DNA from: Pseudofrankia coriaricola
GTDB lineage: Bacteria; Actinomycetota; Actinomycetes; Frankiales; Frankiaceae
Reading direction: 5' to 3'
Assembly (NCBI RefSeq): GCF_001854805.1
Contig: NZ_MBLO01000242.1
Location: 1 to 54,701 of the forward strand
Length of the DNA stretch: 54,701 bases
Shown: positions 22,326-52,561 of the stretch, piece after piece
How positions within the stretch are numbered: position 1 is the stretch's first letter
Layout: the number at the start of each line of letters is the position of its first letter
Program-made: the position numbers and the translations under genes
The notes under the pieces: model-generated
Databases searched by the model: none
Seen by the model: the letters and a program-made list of their open reading frames with translations, nothing else
Told to the model about the DNA's origin: nothing

Positions 22326-22398
22326 TAGCCCGGGTGGGATTCGAACCCACACTGTCGGTGGTTTGAGCACCGTCTCTCTGCCGTTGGAGTACCGGGCC
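22326..22398 (-). tRNA. tRNA-Leu(CAA), 73 nt, short variable loop
   Basis: The minus strand folds as a cloverleaf: a 7-bp acceptor stem (GGCCCGG with CCGGGCT, one G-U at the end), a 3-bp D stem with GG in the loop, anticodon stem CGGTG/CACCG with loop CTCAAAC (anticodon CAA, reading UUG), a 5-nt variable loop ACAGT, T arm GTGGG-TTCGAAT-CCCAC and discriminator A. CCA is not encoded. Leucine tRNAs normally have a long variable arm; this one does not, although the 3-bp D stem and A73 suit a leucine tRNA. The anticodon assignment is direct; the amino acid charged is inferred. Confidence 0.85.
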
Positions 22399-30793: not shown

Positions 30794-31257
30794 ACCCACT
30801 GATTGGCGCCGAGATGTCAGCTGGCCAATCGGTGGAGGAGGCGGTGAGCGTGGCAAACAGGGAGATGAGTTGGCGGATACGGCGTGCCCGCGTCCGGGAA
30901 CGCACAACAGCCGGCCGCCGCGCGGGCCACGTTGACGCGGTTACCGAACGCTCCTAGCGTCTCACCCGCAGTGTGGGGACCGGGGGCGGGCGAGTAGAAA
31001 ACGTCCTGGCTTGGGGAAGGCCCGGACGGCGCCAAAGCTCGCCCCCGGATCGCCGCTCGTCGCGTCCGCGCGCGCCGGGGAACCGCGCGGCTAGGCCAAA
31101 GTCGCTCCCCCGGAAGATCGGCTGGCGCCGATCTTCCGGGGACCCCTGCGGCGATGATGGCGGAGCCTCGCGTGGCCGGAGGCCGTCAGATACGGCCAGG
31201 CCAAAGGCCACGCGATGATGGCGGAGCCTCGCGTGGCCGGAGGCCGTCAGATACGGC
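30794..31257. other. convergent intergenic region between livG and polA
   Basis: 464 bp. It contains a short plus-strand frame at 30813-30957 that I do not accept as a gene, a strong hairpin (31108-31141) and two copies of a 61-bp repeat (31151-31258) that reach the polA stop codon. No livF is present here. Confidence 0.6.
31108..31141. terminator. 14-15-bp perfect hairpin between livG and polA
   Basis: CCCCGGAAGATCGG and its exact complement flank a 6-nt spacer (a 15th C-G pair leaves loop TGGC). It can terminate both the liv operon and polA. It splits what looks like a further copy of the 61-bp repeat, so it may be an inserted element. Confidence 0.8.
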
Positions 31258-31258
31258 C
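31151..31258 (-). repeat. 61-bp tandem repeat array (copy set A)
   Basis: A 47-bp sequence at 31151-31197 recurs without change at 31212-31258, a 61-bp period. Read on the minus strand, each unit contains the hairpin arms GGCCACGCGA and TCGCGTGGCC (the outer copy is cut short). The array begins at the polA stop codon. Its 33-nt core differs from that of the array at 50851-51007 at only three positions. Confidence 0.85.
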
Positions 31259-34164
31259 TAGTGTCCCGCGTCGTCCCAGGTGCGGCCCGCGCCGACGGAG
31301 ACGTCGAGCGGGACGGACATGGTGTACGCGCCGCTCATCTCGGAGCGGACGAGTGCCTCGACGTCCTCGCGCTCGCCGGGGGCGATCTCGAGGACGAGTT
31401 CGTCGTGGACCTGCAGGAGCAGGCGGGAGCGCAGGCCGCGCTCGCGCAGGCCGCGCTCCACCCCCAGCATGGCGATCTTGATGATGTCGGCGGCGGAGCC
31501 CTGGATCGGGGCGTTGAGGGCCATCCGCTCCGCCATCTGCCGGCGCTGGGAGTTGTCGCTGGTCAGGTCGGGCAGGTAGCGGCGGCGGCCGAGGATGGTC
31601 TCGGTGTAGCCGTCCGTGCGGGCGCGGTCGACGACGCCGCGCAGGAAGTCCCGCACCCCGCCGAAACGGGCGAAGTAGGCCTCCATCTGCTCGCGGGCCT
31701 CGTCCGGGGCGATGCCGAGCTGGGAAGCCAGCCCGTAGGCCGACAGGCCGTAGGCAAGGCCGTAGGACATCGCCTTGATCCGCCGCCGCAGCTCCGGGTC
31801 GACGTCGGCGACCGGGAGGTTGAACGCCTGCGCGGCGACGAACGAGTGCAGGTCCTCGCCGGAGGAGAACGCCTCGATCAGTCCCGCGTCGCCGGACAGA
31901 TGCGCCATGATCCGCATCTCGATCTGCGAGTAGTCCGCGGTCAGCAGCGTCTCGTAGCCCGGGCCGACGACGAAGGCGCGGCGGATCTGGCGGCCCTCGG
32001 CGGTGCGGATCGGGATGTTCTGCAGGTTCGGGTCGGTCGACGACAGCCGGCCGGTCGCGGCGATCATCTGGTTGAACGTGGTGTGGATGCGGCCGGCGTC
32101 GTCGATCATCGGCAGCAGCGACTCGACGACGGTCTTGAGCCGGGCCACGTCGCGGTGGCGCAGCAGCGTCGGGATCAGCGGGTGGTCGGTCTGGACGGCC
32201 AGCCACGTGAGCGCGTCCGCGTCCGTGGTGTAGCCCGTCTTGATCTTCTTGGTCTTCGGCAGGTTCAGCTCGTCGAACAGGATCTGCTGCAGCTGCTTGG
32301 GCGAGCCGAGGTTGAACGGCCGGCCGACGATCTGGTGGGCGGCCTCGACGACCTTGGTGACCTCGGCGCCGTACTGGGACTGCAGGTCGGTCAGGTAGTC
32401 GGCGTCGGCGGCGATGCCGGCTCGTTCCATCCCGGCGAGCACGGTCAGCAGCGGCAGCTCGATCTCGTGCAGCAGGCGCGCGGCCGAGCGGCGCTCCAGA
32501 TCGCCGTCGAGGGCGTCGGCGAGCTCGGCGACCGCGCGGGCGCGCACGGCGTCCACCTCGGCCTCGTCCGCCTCGGCGATGCCCTCGACCTCGACCTCGA
32601 GGGTCAACTGGCCGTCCGACGGGCCCTCCTCGGCCTTCAGCTCTCGGTGCAGGTAGCGCAGCACCAGGTCGGCGAGGTCGAACGAGCGCTGGCCCGGCAG
32701 GGCGAGATAGGCGGCGAGCGCGGTGTCGCTGGTGACGCCGTCCAGGGTGAGACCCAGCTCGGCGAGCGCGAGCATCGGGCCCTTGGCGTCGTGTACGGCC
32801 TTCGGTCGAGTCTCGTCGGCGAGCCAGGCGGCCAGCGCGTTCTCGTCGGCGGGGACGAGCTGGGACGGGTCGATCCAGGCGGCGGTGTCGTCGGTGGCGG
32901 CCAGCGCGATCCCGGCGACCGTCCCGGTGCCGCGGCCCCAGGTGCCGCGCAGGTGCAGGCCCGTGCGGGCGCCGCCGACCGTGTGCTCGCCGAGCCACTC
33001 GGTGACGTCACCCGGGCCGAGGATCGTGTACTCGACCGCGAAGCCGCCGTCGCCCGCCGCCGGCTCCACGATCGCGAGCGCCTGGTAGAGCCGCTCCCGC
33101 AGCACCCGGAACTGCAGGGTGTCGAACAGGGTGTGCACCGCCTCCCGGTCCCACGGGACCAGGCGAAGGTCGGCGGGGCCGCGCTCCAGCGGCACGTCGC
33201 GGGCGAGCTCGGTGAGCGCCCGGTTGCGGATCACGTTGGCCAGGTTCTCCCGCAGCGCCGCGCCGGCCTTCCCGGTGACCTCGTCGGCCCGGTCGACCAG
33301 GTCCGCCAGGCCGCCGAACTGCTGGATCCACTTGGTCGCGGTCTTCTCGCCGACGCCGGGGATCGAGGGCAGGTTGTCCGACGGGTCGCCGCGCAGCGCG
33401 GCGAAGTCCGGGTACTGCGTCGGGGTGAGGCCGTACTTGGCCTCCACCTCCGCCGGCGTGTAGCGGATCATGTCGCTGATGCCCTTGCGGGTCATCAGCA
33501 CGGTGATCCGGTCGGTGACGAGCTGCAGCGCGTCGCGGTCGCCGGTGACGATGAGGACGTCCATACCGACGGCCTCGCCCTGGGTGGCCAGCGTCGCGAT
33601 GATGTCGTCCGCCTCGTAGCTGGCGGCGGACATGCTCGGCACGGCGAGCGCGTCGCAGACCTGGTGGATCAGGCTGATCTGGCCGACGAAGTCCGACGGG
33701 GTCTCGGACCTGCCGGCCTTGTACTCGGCGTACTGGGCGTGCCGGAAGGTCGGCGCCGGCAGGTCCCAGGCGACGGCGACGTGCGTCGGCTTCTCGTCGC
33801 GCAGTGCGTTGATCAGCATGGACGTGAAGCCGTAGACGGCGTTCGTCGGCTGCCCGGTGGTGGTGGAGAAGTTCTCCACCGGCAGCGCGAAGAACGCCCG
33901 GTAGGCCAGCGAGTTCCCGTCCAGCAGCAGCAGCCGCCCCGTTCCGGGAGCGGGCGCGCCGCGCGCCGCGGCCGGCGCCGCGGACCTCCCGGCCGCCTTG
34001 GCCGGTGCCTTGGCCGATGACCCGCCGCCGGCGGATCTTGAGGCACGTCTGGCCGGCGCCTTCGCGGGAGCGTCGCCGGGGGCGTCCTGGGCGGCCGGTG
34101 GGGCGGCGTCCGCCGGGACGTCGGACGGGCTACTCAGGTCGGGCTGCGTCGTCGAACCGGGCAC
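31258..34164 (-). CDS. polA: DNA polymerase I
   Basis: About 968 residues. After an 80-residue Lys/Ala/Pro-rich start comes the 5'-3' exonuclease domain (LLLLDGNSLAYRAFFALP, YEADDIIATLA, VTGDRDALQLV, GDPSDNLPSIPGVGEKTA). The middle domain lacks the proofreading DEDD residues. The polymerase domain has motif A LTADYSQIEMRIMAHLSGD (about 740), motif B RRRIKAMSYGLAYG (about 795) and motif C QVHDELVLE (about 919). Motif B has Tyr where E. coli has Phe762, as in T7 polymerase and mycobacterial Pol I. It fills gaps in repair and removes primers. GTG 34164 is the preferred start because the frame's earlier part (to 34260) overlaps the divergent thioesterase promoter; no strong ribosome site decides. 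Confidence 0.97.
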   Translation of the reverse strand: MPGSTTQPDLSSPSDVPADAAPPAAQDAPGDAPAKAPARRASRSAGGGSSAKAPAKAAGRSAAPAAARGAPAPGTGRLLLLDGNSLAYRAFFALPVENFSTTTGQPTNAVYGFTSMLINALRDEKPTHVAVAWDLPAPTFRHAQYAEYKAGRSETPSDFVGQISLIHQVCDALAVPSMSAASYEADDIIATLATQGEAVGMDVLIVTGDRDALQLVTDRITVLMTRKGISDMIRYTPAEVEAKYGLTPTQYPDFAALRGDPSDNLPSIPGVGEKTATKWIQQFGGLADLVDRADEVTGKAGAALRENLANVIRNRALTELARDVPLERGPADLRLVPWDREAVHTLFDTLQFRVLRERLYQALAIVEPAAGDGGFAVEYTILGPGDVTEWLGEHTVGGARTGLHLRGTWGRGTGTVAGIALAATDDTAAWIDPSQLVPADENALAAWLADETRPKAVHDAKGPMLALAELGLTLDGVTSDTALAAYLALPGQRSFDLADLVLRYLHRELKAEEGPSDGQLTLEVEVEGIAEADEAEVDAVRARAVAELADALDGDLERRSAARLLHEIELPLLTVLAGMERAGIAADADYLTDLQSQYGAEVTKVVEAAHQIVGRPFNLGSPKQLQQILFDELNLPKTKKIKTGYTTDADALTWLAVQTDHPLIPTLLRHRDVARLKTVVESLLPMIDDAGRIHTTFNQMIAATGRLSSTDPNLQNIPIRTAEGRQIRRAFVVGPGYETLLTADYSQIEMRIMAHLSGDAGLIEAFSSGEDLHSFVAAQAFNLPVADVDPELRRRIKAMSYGLAYGLSAYGLASQLGIAPDEAREQMEAYFARFGGVRDFLRGVVDRARTDGYTETILGRRRYLPDLTSDNSQRRQMAERMALNAPIQGSAADIIKIAMLGVERGLRERGLRSRLLLQVHDELVLEIAPGEREDVEALVRSEMSGAYTMSVPLDVSVGAGRTWDDAGH

Positions 34165-34271
34165 CCGGCGAAGTCTAGGCCGCCGGTATGACAGTCCACC
34201 GACCGCGCCGGCCGTCCGGCCGGTGCCACCGTGGTCCCGTAGGTGCCCGGCGGGCGCCATATTGTCGGCTG

Positions 34272-43533: not shown

Positions 43534-44960
43534 CGCAGCGGCCCGTGCAGCCGGTCGAGACCGCCGGGTCGGGGCGCGCGGCGGCTGTGCTTGGCGGCCT
43601 CCTGGACGAGCGCCGCGTACGTCTGGCGGGCGGTGTTGGCCCAGGTGAACGTCGCGGCGTGCGCCAGCGCGCCCGCGACGAGCCGGTCGCGCAGCCCCTG
43701 GTCGCCCAGCACCCGGCCGAGCGCGCCGGCGAGGTCACGCGGCTCGACCAGCAGGCCGGACAGCCCGTCGGCGACGGCGTCGGTGTGGCCGGCGATGTTG
43801 GTCGCGACGGACGGGGTCCCGCAGGCCGCCGCCTCGGTGATCGTCATGCCCCAGCCCTCGCGGGCCGAGGCGCTGGTTAGCACCCAGGCCCGCCGGTAGA
43901 GCGCGAGCAGGCCGTCGTCGTCGACCCGGCCCGGCAGCTTCAGCCAGTCGGCGGCGCGCGCGGCGCGGATCTGGGCCTCCAGCGCCGGGCGCTCGTAGCC
44001 CTCGCCGACGATGATCGCCTCCATCGTCGGGTGCTGCTGGCGCAGCCGGACCAGCGCGTCGACGAGGATGTCGAACCGCTTCACCGGCACCAGCCGGCCG
44101 ACCGCCAGGACCAGCGGGTGCGGCGAGCGTTCTCCGAGCGGGGCGTAGCGCTCGTCGATGCCCGGCGGGATGACGGAGATGTTCGCCGGTGGCAGCCCGA
44201 GCATTTCGATGATCTCGTGGCGGGACGACTCGGACAGCGTCAGCATCCGGGTGCGCCGGTACAGCGGCGGCGCGATGGTGCTCTCCAGCGTCTCGCCGAT
44301 CTTCGCCAGCGGCGGCTTCAGCACCATCCGCCACATCTCGCCATGGACATGGTGCAGGAACACGACCCGGGGGCAGGGCGCCCACACCGGGGAGAAGAAC
44401 GGCATGCCGTTCCAGATCTCCACCAGGCCGTCCCAGGGGCCGCCGTGGCCGAGCGCGCCGGAGATCGCCGAGCGCGGGAACACCATGTACCGGCCGGCCT
44501 TGCGCACGACGGAGTAGCCGTTGCGGGTCGCCGTCTCCAGGTGGCCAGGGGCGTGCGCGGTGCGCATGCTCACGTCGACGCCGGCCGCGGCCCAGGCCGC
44601 GGCGACCTGGTCGGCGTGCAGCTCGGAGCCGCCGGCCTCCGGGTCGTCCAGGTCGCGCCAGGCGAGCATGTGCACGCGGCGCACGCCCGAGCGCTCGACC
44701 AGCTCCGCGAGGGTGGGCTCGCGCGCCTCGATCCACGGCGCCTGGCGCGGCTCGGCGAGCCGCACGGCCGAGCCCGGCCGCCCGCCGCGCGCCGGCTGCT
44801 GACCGGGGATGGCCCTGCCGAGGCCCGCGGGGCTGCCCAGCCTCTCAGCGCCGCTCAGCCTCTCAGCGCCGCTCAGCCTCTCAGCGCCGCTCAGCCTCTC
44901 AGCGCCACCCGGCCGCGCGGCGGCGCTCGGACGGCCAGCGCCCTCGTCGAGCGTGCTCAT
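43530..44960 (-). CDS. glycosyltransferase family 4 protein
   Basis: A 476-residue GT-B enzyme. The N-terminal domain carries the GGSELHADQVAAAWAAAGVDV motif; the C-terminal domain has VLAVGRLVPVKRFDILVDALV, IIVGEGYERPALEAQI and SAREGWGMTITEAAACGTPSVATNIAGHTDAV, the EGWGM..EA..CG nucleotide-sugar site of family 4. It would transfer a sugar from a nucleotide donor during surface-glycan assembly in the cytoplasm. The first ~60 residues include a 6-residue repeat (RLSGAE) from an 18-bp DNA repeat. ATG 44960 overlaps the upstream gene's stop; its own stop overlaps the AftD start. Confidence 0.92.
   Translation of the reverse strand: MSTLDEGAGRPSAAARPGGAERLSGAERLSGAERLSGAERLGSPAGLGRAIPGQQPARGGRPGSAVRLAEPRQAPWIEAREPTLAELVERSGVRRVHMLAWRDLDDPEAGGSELHADQVAAAWAAAGVDVSMRTAHAPGHLETATRNGYSVVRKAGRYMVFPRSAISGALGHGGPWDGLVEIWNGMPFFSPVWAPCPRVVFLHHVHGEMWRMVLKPPLAKIGETLESTIAPPLYRRTRMLTLSESSRHEIIEMLGLPPANISVIPPGIDERYAPLGERSPHPLVLAVGRLVPVKRFDILVDALVRLRQQHPTMEAIIVGEGYERPALEAQIRAARAADWLKLPGRVDDDGLLALYRRAWVLTSASAREGWGMTITEAAACGTPSVATNIAGHTDAVADGLSGLLVEPRDLAGALGRVLGDQGLRDRLVAGALAHAATFTWANTARQTYAALVQEAAKHSRRAPRPGGLDRLHGPLR
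44838..44909 (-). repeat. four 18-bp coding repeats in GT4 gene
   Basis: CAGCCTCTCAGCGCCGCT is repeated four times (the last copy ends ACC), in frame, in the disordered N-terminal part of the glycosyltransferase. Copy number is likely to vary between strains. Confidence 0.85.
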
Positions 44961-50071: not shown

Positions 50072-50850
50072 GCGCCGGCCGTCCGGACGCGCCCCCTGAC
50101 GGCGCGTGTCCCCGCGCGCGGCGTCATCGCGCCGCGCGTCGCCGGGGCGTCCGCCGCCGACGCGCGTGGGCCGGTCGCCGCCGCGGGGGCTCCTGTCGGG
50201 TCGGCGAAGCCCGGGATCCCTGTCGGATCCGGGGTCCCTGCCCGATTGGCGAAGCCGATCTGCTGGGAGGTCTGTCGGGGGCTCTGTCGGGGGGTCCGGG
50301 TCGCCCGCGGCGCCGCGTCCTCGCGCGGCGCGCTCGCCGGTGACCCCGCGGTATGGGCCTGCGGGCGCGCGCGTCGCGTCGCGCCCGCCGTGGTCGCGCC
50401 CGGAGCCGTCCAGGCCGGCGGCATCGCGGCCGCGGCCATCGCGTCGGCCGCCCTCGCGCCCGTCGCCGTACGAGCCGACCCGGTGCCAGTGGTCCCCTCG
50501 GCCCGCTCCCGCGCGGGAGCCGTCGCCGCGGCCGGCGCCCGCGTCGCCGCGTTCGTCGTCGTAGCCGTCGTCCCGGTGCTCGTCGCCACCATGGGCGTCA
50601 CCGCCGCGGCTGTCGTCCTCGCGTCCGCGACCGTCGTGCTGGTCGTCGTCGGGGCGGCCGGCTCGGGCGGGCGAATGATCGCGGAAGCGGGCGGTGTCGG
50701 AGATCCGGACGGTGTCAGCGTCTTTGCCGCTCAGCCGGGGCCTCCTCCCGCTCGTCCGCCAGTCGTGATCGGCGGCCCGCCTCCAGCTGACCGCTCTGCG
50801 AAGTATGCGGTAGCCCCGGCGTGGTCCCGCGCGCGCGTCCTCGGCTATAT

Positions 50851-51007
50851 CGCACGGTGAACCGCCGGCCGCGCGAGGCTTCGCCATCGTCGCGCGGCCT
50901 TTGGCTGGTATCGCATGGTGAACCGCCGGCCGCGCGAGGCTTCGCCATCGTCGCGCGGCCTTTGGCTGGTACCGCACGGTGAACCTCCGGCCGCGCGAGG
51001 CCTCGCC
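50851..51007 (+). repeat. 61-bp tandem repeat array (copy set B)
   Basis: Units at 50851-50911 and 50912-50972 are identical except at two positions; a third, partial copy runs 50973-51007. Each full unit has hairpin arms GGCCGCGCGA and TCGCGCGGCC separated by 13 nt. It lies in the region between the acyltransferase (minus) and GT39 (plus) genes. Confidence 0.88.
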
Positions 51008-51070: not shown

Positions 51071-52561
51071 GTGACCAAGACCGCTATCGCGCCGGTTCCG
51101 GCGGAGATGCCCGAGACCGGCGGCCCAGGGCCGCGGAACCGGCGCTGGTGGCTGCTGTTGGTCCTGATCATGGCTGTCGGTCTCGGTGTCCGGCTGTGGT
51201 ATCTGTTCGGCTGGATGCACCCGGCGGTTGTGCAGGGCGACCCGCTCTACTACCACGATGCGGCCAACCTGTTCGCCGACGGGCGAGGCTGGCCCGACCC
51301 GTACGAGCTCAGACTGAACCACCGGTATGTGCCGGACGCGCAGCACCCGCCGCTGACCAGCGCGCTGCTCGCGCTGCCGTCCCTCGTCGGCCTCACCACG
51401 TTCCTCGAGCACCAGGTGTTCGACTGCCTGCTCGGAACGCTGACCATCCTGGTCGTCGCGCTGACCGGGAGGCGCGCCGCCGGGCCCACGGCCGGGCTGG
51501 TCGCGGCCGGGCTCGCCGCCGTCTACCCCGGCATGTGGATCAATGACCCGCTGCTGATGTCGGAGACGACCGGGATCCTGGCCTGCTCGGCGGTGCTCTG
51601 GCTCGCCTACCGGTTCTGGGACCGGCGCGGCTACCTGGACGCCGCCCTGCTGGGGCTCGCCACCGCCGCGGCGGCGCTGGCGCGGGCCGAACTGCTCCTG
51701 CTCTCGGTCTTCCTGGTGACGCCGCTGGTTCTGCTGGCCCGCGCGCCTGGAGGGCCAAAGGAGGTGCGAAAATGGGCCTCCTTCGCACCTCCGGCGGCCC
51801 CTCATCCTCGGAACACCGAAGCGCTCCCGGCGGCCAGGGCGTCATGGGCGCGCAGGGCGGGGATGCTCGCGGCCGCCGGGGCGGCCTGCGTCCTGGCGAT
51901 CGCGCCGTGGGCCGGCTACAACCTGAGCCGGTTCAACGAGCCCGAGTACCTGTCCACGGGGCTCGGCACGACGCTCGCGGTCACGCACTGCGACACGACC
52001 TACCACGGCACATTCCTCGGCTGGTGGGACTTCAAGTGCATCCTGAAGATCCAGAACGAGCCGACCGAACGCTCCGAGCGCGATGTCTTCTATCGCGACG
52101 CCGCCTACCGGTACATCGGCGACCACAAGGCCGAACTGCCGAAGGTCGCGCTGGCCAGGGCCGGGCGGACCTGGGGGGTGTTCCGGCCGTTCCAGCAGGT
52201 CCGGTTCGACACGATCGAGTCACGGCCGGCGGGGCTCAGCAAGGCGGCGCTGTTCTCGCTGTGGGTGCTGCTGGCCGCGGGCGCCGTCGGCGCGGTGCTG
52301 CTGCGCCGACGCCGCGCGTTGCTGCTGCCGCTGCTCGCGCTGCCGGGGGCGCTGACCGTCGCCTCGACGATGGTCTACGGGACCAGCCGTTTCCGCGCCG
52401 TCGCGGAGCCGGCGGTGGTGCTGCTCGCCGCCGTCGCGTTCGCCTCCATCCGCGCCCGCTTCGTCCCCCGCGGCCGCCACAGCGACTCGCGGGTGACGGC
52501 GCGCGCCGGGCAGGCGGGCCAGGCTCCGACCCGGCCACGGGCCGAGACCCCGGCCGTGTGA
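51071..52561 (+). CDS. GT39/ArnT-like membrane glycosyltransferase
   Basis: A 496-residue GT-C family protein with about eleven helices. The first loop has the acidic motif QGDPLYYHDAANLFADG, matching the catalytic Asp region of PMT/ArnT-like enzymes that use polyprenyl-phosphate sugars outside the membrane. LAAVYPGMWINDPLLMSETTG and RAELLLLSVFLV follow. A segment around residues 228-262 (PKEVRKWASFAPPAAPHP...) is encoded by a DNA palindrome and does not look like normal family sequence. GTG 51071 has no ribosome site; a leaderless start is likely. The acceptor is unknown; it may serve the neighbouring glycan genes. Confidence 0.85.
   Translation: MTKTAIAPVPAEMPETGGPGPRNRRWWLLLVLIMAVGLGVRLWYLFGWMHPAVVQGDPLYYHDAANLFADGRGWPDPYELRLNHRYVPDAQHPPLTSALLALPSLVGLTTFLEHQVFDCLLGTLTILVVALTGRRAAGPTAGLVAAGLAAVYPGMWINDPLLMSETTGILACSAVLWLAYRFWDRRGYLDAALLGLATAAAALARAELLLLSVFLVTPLVLLARAPGGPKEVRKWASFAPPAAPHPRNTEALPAARASWARRAGMLAAAGAACVLAIAPWAGYNLSRFNEPEYLSTGLGTTLAVTHCDTTYHGTFLGWWDFKCILKIQNEPTERSERDVFYRDAAYRYIGDHKAELPKVALARAGRTWGVFRPFQQVRFDTIESRPAGLSKAALFSLWVLLAAGAVGAVLLRRRRALLLPLLALPGALTVASTMVYGTSRFRAVAEPAVVLLAAVAFASIRARFVPRGRHSDSRVTARAGQAGQAPTRPRAETPAV
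51760..51792 (+). repeat. palindrome with perfect Shine-Dalgarno inside GT39 gene
   Basis: GGAGGTGCGAA and TTCGCACCTCC (11 bp, perfect) flank an 11-nt loop. The left arm forms AAAGGAGGT (51757-51765), a full match to the 16S anti-SD, and an ATG follows at 51772. It lies within the reading frame and probably arrived as a small inserted element. Confidence 0.7.

Follow-up and report, generated by a model that had tools for sequence, protein, structure and literature searches.

The DNA polymerase I gene of Pseudofrankia coriaricola ends inside a repetitive element. We studied positions 1 to 54,701 of contig NZ_MBLO01000242.1 (assembly GCF_001854805.1; this stretch is the window), from a genome of 11.2 Mb in 280 contigs (G000). 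On the minus strand, the polA open reading frame (31258..34260, counted from the longest start; Pfam DNA_pol_A, E = 1.1e-147) has its TAG stop within a CTAG (31258-31261), and this CTAG is also the left end of an insertion that runs from CTAG to CTAG (31091..31261, minus strand). The original prediction had placed a tandem repeat with a covarying hairpin at 31151..31258: an array is present there, but the insertion extends beyond these limits. It consists of a short unit followed by a long-form unit. The short unit has an intact 10-bp hairpin and is matched by our covariance model at 31198..31246 (minus strand; 33-nt core at 31206-31238, 5' end of the match at 31246). The second core is matched at 31140..31185 (minus strand, 5' end at 31185), and its 3' arm is replaced, after ATCGC, by a 34-nt hairpin at 31108..31141 (minus strand; 15-bp stem and GCCA loop, from a pattern search and folding). 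The resulting composite, or long form, ends in TTTGGCCTAG.

A second array lies on the plus strand at 50848..51007, where Tandem Repeats Finder reports 2.6 units of 61 bp; the polA array is absent from that program's output. The covariance model matches two units here (50859..50907 and 50920..50968, with 5' ends at 50859 and 50920), so both arrays and their common 61-bp period and hairpin core are real, as had been proposed. A third copy, which belongs to a second loop family (the C-loop family, described below), lies on the minus strand at 51752..51800, antisense to and open in frame within an open reading frame on the plus strand (51071..52561) that has a PMT_2 domain by Pfam; it accounts for residues 228-244. 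Allowing up to 3 mismatches, we find a 23-nt inner core 4 times in the window, as compared to a mean of 0.02 in 100 shuffles. The window also contains an 18-bp tandem repeat (44836-44942; 3.8 copies, 100% matches, nested in 36- and 54-bp periods) and, on the minus strand at 22326-22398, a tRNA gene; nothing else in the window matches Rfam at the gathering score.

Each unit has a foot of GGCC(T/G)CC, a 10-bp stem, a loop (13 nt in both of the main families that we describe), and a second foot of TTYGGCC, as read from alignments A1 and A5. The stem sequence varies between units, largely by paired changes. The 33-nt cores of the two arrays were thought to differ at three positions; there are four differences (5, 15, 23, and 29), and two of these form the compensating pair that had been noticed, A-T at polA and G-C at 50848. 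Similarly, the claim of a perfect 10-bp hairpin in each array holds for one of the two units at polA but not for the other, whose 3' arm was replaced. The original prediction did not mention the second loop family, nor that elements can end in CTAG, are associated with stop codons, and are inserted in frame within genes.

Both arrays belong to a large family. If we search G000 for the core with up to 3 mismatches, leaving free the covarying pair of the original prediction and two loop positions, then we find 45 occurrences (27 + 18), and the reversed control gives 0 + 0, so the genome does hold the further copies that had been expected. A covariance model built from 26 copies has at least 122 matches in G000 at E ≤ 0.01; this is a lower bound, as 150 of the 43,772 first-look candidates were scored. 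DNA was available for 120 of the 122 matches listed, and these have the A loop (104), the C loop (3), or another loop (13). The 120 located matches group into at least 94 arrays: 74 single, 15 double, 4 triple, and 1 quadruple, so that 20 of 94 arrays among the matches listed are head-to-tail arrays of two or more units. The C-loop family has the same feet and stem and a loop consensus of AGGAAGATCATT. A model of this second family found 11 copies with at least 49 bits, at nine places, in twenty 20-kb stretches (400 kb) that were picked by hand and do not cover the known A sites. Because the stretches were hand-picked, the corresponding estimate for the whole genome, about 250 places, is very approximate. 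The long form is dispersed as well, with 8 places in G000 by pattern search (including the window; reversed control 0), and C125:186670, C114:95956, and C249:49631 of G000 carry further variants of it.

In a search of 58 genomes under stricter filters, matches at E ≤ 0.001 are present in 15: 15 of the 35 from the family Frankiaceae, to which the window belongs, and 0 of the 23 from outside it. All eight genomes of the window's genus carry matches in this search, with 88 copies in G000, 62 in G006, 48 in G005, 30 in G004, 2 each in G002 and G003, and 1 each in G001 and G007. Named hosts are P. asymbiotica (Frankiaceae) and F. nepalensis. At the few loci that we read from other genera of Frankiaceae, the feet are conserved and the loop frequently terminates in CATGATCGCG. 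Of 17 stretches with exact matches to the core, 7 come from other bacteria (Novosphingobium, Dechloromonas, Chloroflexaceae, Bradyrhizobium, two Ancylobacter, and one gammaproteobacterium). Given to the covariance model, six of the seven match over 21-29 of its 49 positions and one does not match, and we treat them as chance or coding likeness.

Comparison with sister genomes suggests that these elements move. Of 13 sites that we compared, 8 have no element in at least one sister and 1 differs in the number of units. P. asymbiotica has no element at the polA site and a single CTAG there, as compared to two in P. coriaricola. It also lacks the element at 51752, and its stretch at that place is shorter and poorly alignable. 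The element at C125:25297 is absent from G005 and G006, which have about 22 unrelated bases in its place; the one at C125:193355 is absent from G004, G005, and G006; and those at C249:52571, C249:63303, and C249:49631 are all absent from both G005 and G006. At C273:13358, the element is absent from G004 and G005 and present in G006, and G001 and G003 have other inserts. The array at 50848 has 2.6 units here vs. about 1.6 at the same place in P. asymbiotica. For the remaining sites, the flank (C125:19650) or the site (C249:55326 and C249:57915) gave no alignment with the sisters, or the site falls within a larger stretch that is missing in the sister (C125:186670).

A duplication that resembles a target duplication is visible at few of these sites: CTAG at polA and about 9 bp at C125:193355, with none seen at C249:52571. 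The flanks at polA and at C125:25297 differ from the sisters beyond a clean insertion, and the absences could in principle reflect loss in the sisters, as an alternative to insertion. Still, given the dispersal, the covariation, and the unoccupied sites, it seems that the original prediction was correct in rejecting chance and in proposing a REP-like mobile palindrome. We think that these are probably mobile palindromes, dispersed and non-autonomous, with a length of about 55-110 bp. As a separate observation, L160:55-215 and L090 (in G003), which come from two genomes, have different kinds of these hairpins just before one and the same coding stretch (ADASVVKVYYSEL, by eye), which suggests a recurrent insertion site.

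How are the ends of these elements defined? Candidate end motifs are CTAGGCC/GGCCTAG or CTAGTGATCC/CCCTCTAG. CTAG is rare in G000, with 330 occurrences in 928,889 bases, or 0.36 per kb vs. the 2.52 expected from base composition (a seven-fold depletion), and as a control, 911 of 200,000 random 16-mers contain it. Among the matches listed, CTAG is found at the ends of 16 of 94 A-loop (R1) arrays (10 on both sides, 4 on the left only, and 2 on the right only), and the other 78 of the 94 have it at neither end. For the C-loop family, where we scored either CTAG or TTAG as a left end, 15 of 30 places have such an end (6 on both sides, 7 on the right only, and 2 on the left only). As most A arrays do without it, we rejected the idea that CTAG delimits the family in general.

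The CTAG ends raise the possibility of a MITE that is moved by the DDE transposase of an insertion sequence. Some IS5-type elements target YTAR/CTAG, and it would fit that a subset of our elements has CTAG at both ends and that the unoccupied polA site has one CTAG. On the other hand, by eye there is no terminal inverted repeat beyond CTAGGCC/GGCCTAG, and most A arrays do not have CTAG ends at all. Also, we found no autonomous partner or longer element with these ends in 929 kb of G000; there, 13 of 14 occurrences of one left-end motif and 8 of 9 of the other come with the short right end. We consider a DDE-type MITE to be unlikely, if well worth keeping in mind.

Many of the elements lie at or near stop codons. 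In six A arrays, including the one at polA, the TAG stop of the upstream gene is at the identical offset, 11 nt before the start of the model. Using gene calls from our own script, in which stops are more reliable than starts, element ends that face a stop codon lie within 25 nt of it in 29 of 59 cases, as compared to 13 of 64 for ends that face a start codon (p = 0.001; 81 arrays, omitting matches below 35 bits except for long forms near 30). If we consider upstream ends only, then the contrast is 19 of 32 vs. 5 of 30 (p = 0.0007); for downstream ends only, it is 10 of 27 vs. 8 of 34, and the excess at stops is not significant (p = 0.27).

Some of the elements are inside genes. Among the matches listed, 10 of 94 arrays lie inside a coding sequence whose frame continues unchanged through the element without a stop; a further 3 of 94 have a stop within the element; and in 9 of 94, one strand has coding potential to either side of the element, but the frames differ. 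Judged by our gene calls, 17 of 81 clusters lie within genes, with 13 in antisense and 4 in sense orientation; this count omits C125:193355, which was missed because the start of its gene was called too late. The A cores are open in all six frames in 64 of 104 cases among the matches listed, in five frames in 35, and in four frames in 5. Of ten host proteins, 7 matched a Pfam family. Relative to homologues in the PDB, an extra peptide is found in a phosphoketolase, an acyl-CoA dehydrogenase, and the Rieske domain of a ring-hydroxylating oxygenase, and a hydrogenase maturation protease has the extra peptide twice in tandem. These are natural peptide insertions in catalytic enzymes.

The pairing in the stems is real. 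Both partners of the pair are changed in 16 of 391 stem cells of the A alignment and in 25 of 266 of the C alignment, and 0 of 500 shuffles reached such values; the covariation score beats 500 of 500 shuffles in both alignments. Some other measures do not exceed their controls. The number of pairs changed on both sides was reached by 13 (A) and 51 (C) of 500 shuffles, and the number of further pair types was reached by 124 (A) and 500 (C) of 500. In the A alignment, a slide of -3 columns scores 0.123 vs. 0.116. Also, 71 of 770 stem cells are not Watson-Crick pairs (counted over 77 of the 87 distinct 49-mers). Arm changes without compensation, one of the two conditions that would count against the original prediction, do occur in some copies.

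Covariation by itself is no proof of RNA. The original prediction had offered a folded RNA as one reading, and a structured RNA in 3' untranslated regions (a terminator, stabiliser, or regulator under selection at the RNA level) could account for the covariation, for the many upstream stops on the same strand within 25 nt (the 19 of 32 mentioned above, with copies in the sense direction), and for the stable folds: z-scores for five folded elements range from -1.6 to -4.0, although the unit at 50848, at -1.6, is not unusual. Selection on RNA from this strand would favour G·U pairs over A·C mismatches, which is not what we see. In the two curated alignments (A and C), no pair has a one-sided G·U state. 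In a count that used 60 A and 25 C copies out of 95, the A stems have 13 G·U vs. 20 A·C (p = 0.30) and the C stems have 1 vs. 10 (p = 0.012); these p values are soft because the copies are related. A first, mixed set had 15 G·U vs. 31 A·C. Outside the stem, C>T and G>A changes are balanced (62:53 in A and 10:11 in C). The stem data rather point to folding at the DNA level, to the other strand, or to correction of the arms in step.

Other evidence also speaks against an RNA. We rejected a known RNA family as the identity of the element: Rfam finds nothing but the tRNA in the window and, at four element loci with E ≤ 1, a single sub-threshold match (19.2 bits vs. a gathering score of 46.7). We rejected an intrinsic terminator at polA as well, as a simple scan finds no terminator-like site there. 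Furthermore, orthologous sites in the sisters do without the element, and 13 of the 17 intragenic clusters are antisense to their genes. So a function as RNA is not supported, and we consider it quite improbable that selection on a 3' RNA accounts for the family.

A fixed-foot hairpin that is dispersed, is found at the ends of genes, and is sometimes intragenic resembles the REPs as they are described in PMC3733652. This makes it natural to ask whether an IS200-type Y1 transposase (RAYT) moves our elements too. A search for Y1_Tnp (PF01797, E ≤ 0.001) found none in G000 or in G001-G006, which include the four most copy-rich genomes of the genus. Of 18 relatives searched, 8 have the domain. These include G007 and, in favour of a RAYT, three genomes of another genus that carry copies (G015, G021, and G024). 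However, other genomes with the domain have few or no copies (1 in G007, 3 in G016, and none in G008, G014, or G022), and neither GTAG nor CGTC marks the foot in alignments A1 and A5. A REP family that is moved by a RAYT seems very unlikely. A more divergent HUH protein may be the mobiliser.

Finally, that we are looking at local tandem duplication alone or at chance likeness can hardly be true: among the matches listed, 20 of 94 arrays do have two or more units, but the family occupies at least 94 separate places, the reversed control finds 0 copies, and sister genomes have unoccupied sites. We also rejected a CRISPR array, as there are no unique spacers; at 50848, the entire 61-bp unit repeats with 94% matches.

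Returning to mobile palindromic elements, how might they move? An enzyme encoded elsewhere would recognise a folded single strand by its fixed feet and by the CAT in the loop, with the stem free to vary. It would insert the element, for one subset at CTAG, a sequence that may be rare outside of stop codons in this genome or selected there. Tandem copies could arise by slippage or unequal exchange. The arms might be kept complementary by the need to fold for moving, or by template-switch correction, rather than by a function as RNA.

A bolder version of this proposal, which we offer tentatively and think is rather unlikely to be correct as a whole, is that the Frankiaceae have a mobile system in which an enzyme other than Y1 reads the feet and the loop, one branch has turned to CTAG stop codons, and the stems are rewritten by template switching at each locus. 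Placement at CTAG stop codons would leave the upstream protein intact, and if so, a genome densely packed with genes could be colonised by selfish DNA without much harm. At C273:13358, the differences from G006 affect the three copies of the flanking repeat and one of the two facing arms jointly, and such joint differences would explain covariation with few intermediates. We also considered whether the arm was copied from the target at all TATCGGCTG-type copies, in the order D - TATCGGCTG - reverse complement of D - loop - D. Judged by eye, this pattern fits C273 and C240, fits C254 in part, and does not fit C219 or C262. We dropped it as a rule because it has few matches (5 in G000, 2 in G006, and 0 in six others) and because the arm GGGTCCGCGG is common to several loci.

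Among known systems, REPs of the GTAG and CGTC superfamilies share several traits with these elements. According to PMC3733652, a REP is a small, dispersed palindrome whose end motifs are fixed and whose stem varies; most REPs lie close to the ends of genes and some lie within them; they are described mainly in proteobacteria; and GTAG REPs are tied to RAYT transposases while CGTC REPs have no dedicated transposase. Compensatory changes in the stem of a dispersed palindrome, another trait of REPs, are seen here too. In contrast to REPs, our elements have neither foot tag, are longer (a 49-nt core), form head-to-tail arrays, have CTAG ends in a subset, and come from actinobacteria; the words "Actinobacteria" and "Frankia" are absent from the text of PMC3733652.

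The RPEs of Rickettsia are palindromes inserted in frame in unrelated protein genes, as some of ours are, and at about 150 bp (both from PMC10969869) they differ from our mostly intergenic elements, which are often beside stops; this comparison is by description. Also by description, the MIRUs are short actinobacterial units that lie at gene junctions in tandem arrays, with a variable number of units per array, and here too the number of units varies between relatives, in the one array that we compared (50848). MIRUs insert at DTGA stop/start overlaps. What sets our elements apart from MIRUs is the covarying hairpin, together with the CTAG ends of a subset. Bacterial MITEs are similar in being small, non-autonomous, and dispersed, perhaps also in short target-like duplications at some sites, but here we saw no long terminal inverted repeats by eye and found no parent insertion sequence in 929 kb of G000.

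In the open-access literature that we sampled, we did not recognise a paper on this family or find a description of this combination of REP-, RPE-, and MIRU-like traits. In a survey of Frankia insertion sequences (PMC2770080), a word search found none of "MITE", "palindrom", "CTAG", "repetitive", or "hairpin". In PMC4447401, both palindromes and tandem repeats were counted for four strains of Frankia, so the family may have been detected earlier without being named.

Here, then, is an abundant actinobacterial family, with at least 122 matches in one genome, where no Y1 transposase was found, and it combines a bias toward stop codons with ends that, in a subset, consist of a rare tetranucleotide. 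This makes it testable how palindromes move without a RAYT.

These genomes contain other repeats as well. At L105:3906-4487 (about 20555-21136 of C125 in G000), there is a stretch of about 580 bp that is rich in inverted repeats and represents another abundant repeat family; there are 11 matching places in 929 kb of G000, and many on both strands in G004-G006. Another repeat (L115:994-1152), about 150 bp long, is found at 24 places in 929 kb of G000 and also in sister genomes. A dispersed motif of about 41 nt that contains AGATCGGCTTCGCCGATC (L106:4063-4106) occurs at 29 places in 929 kb of G000, and similar sequence directly adjoins two C-loop cores (L302:3926 and L298:1309).
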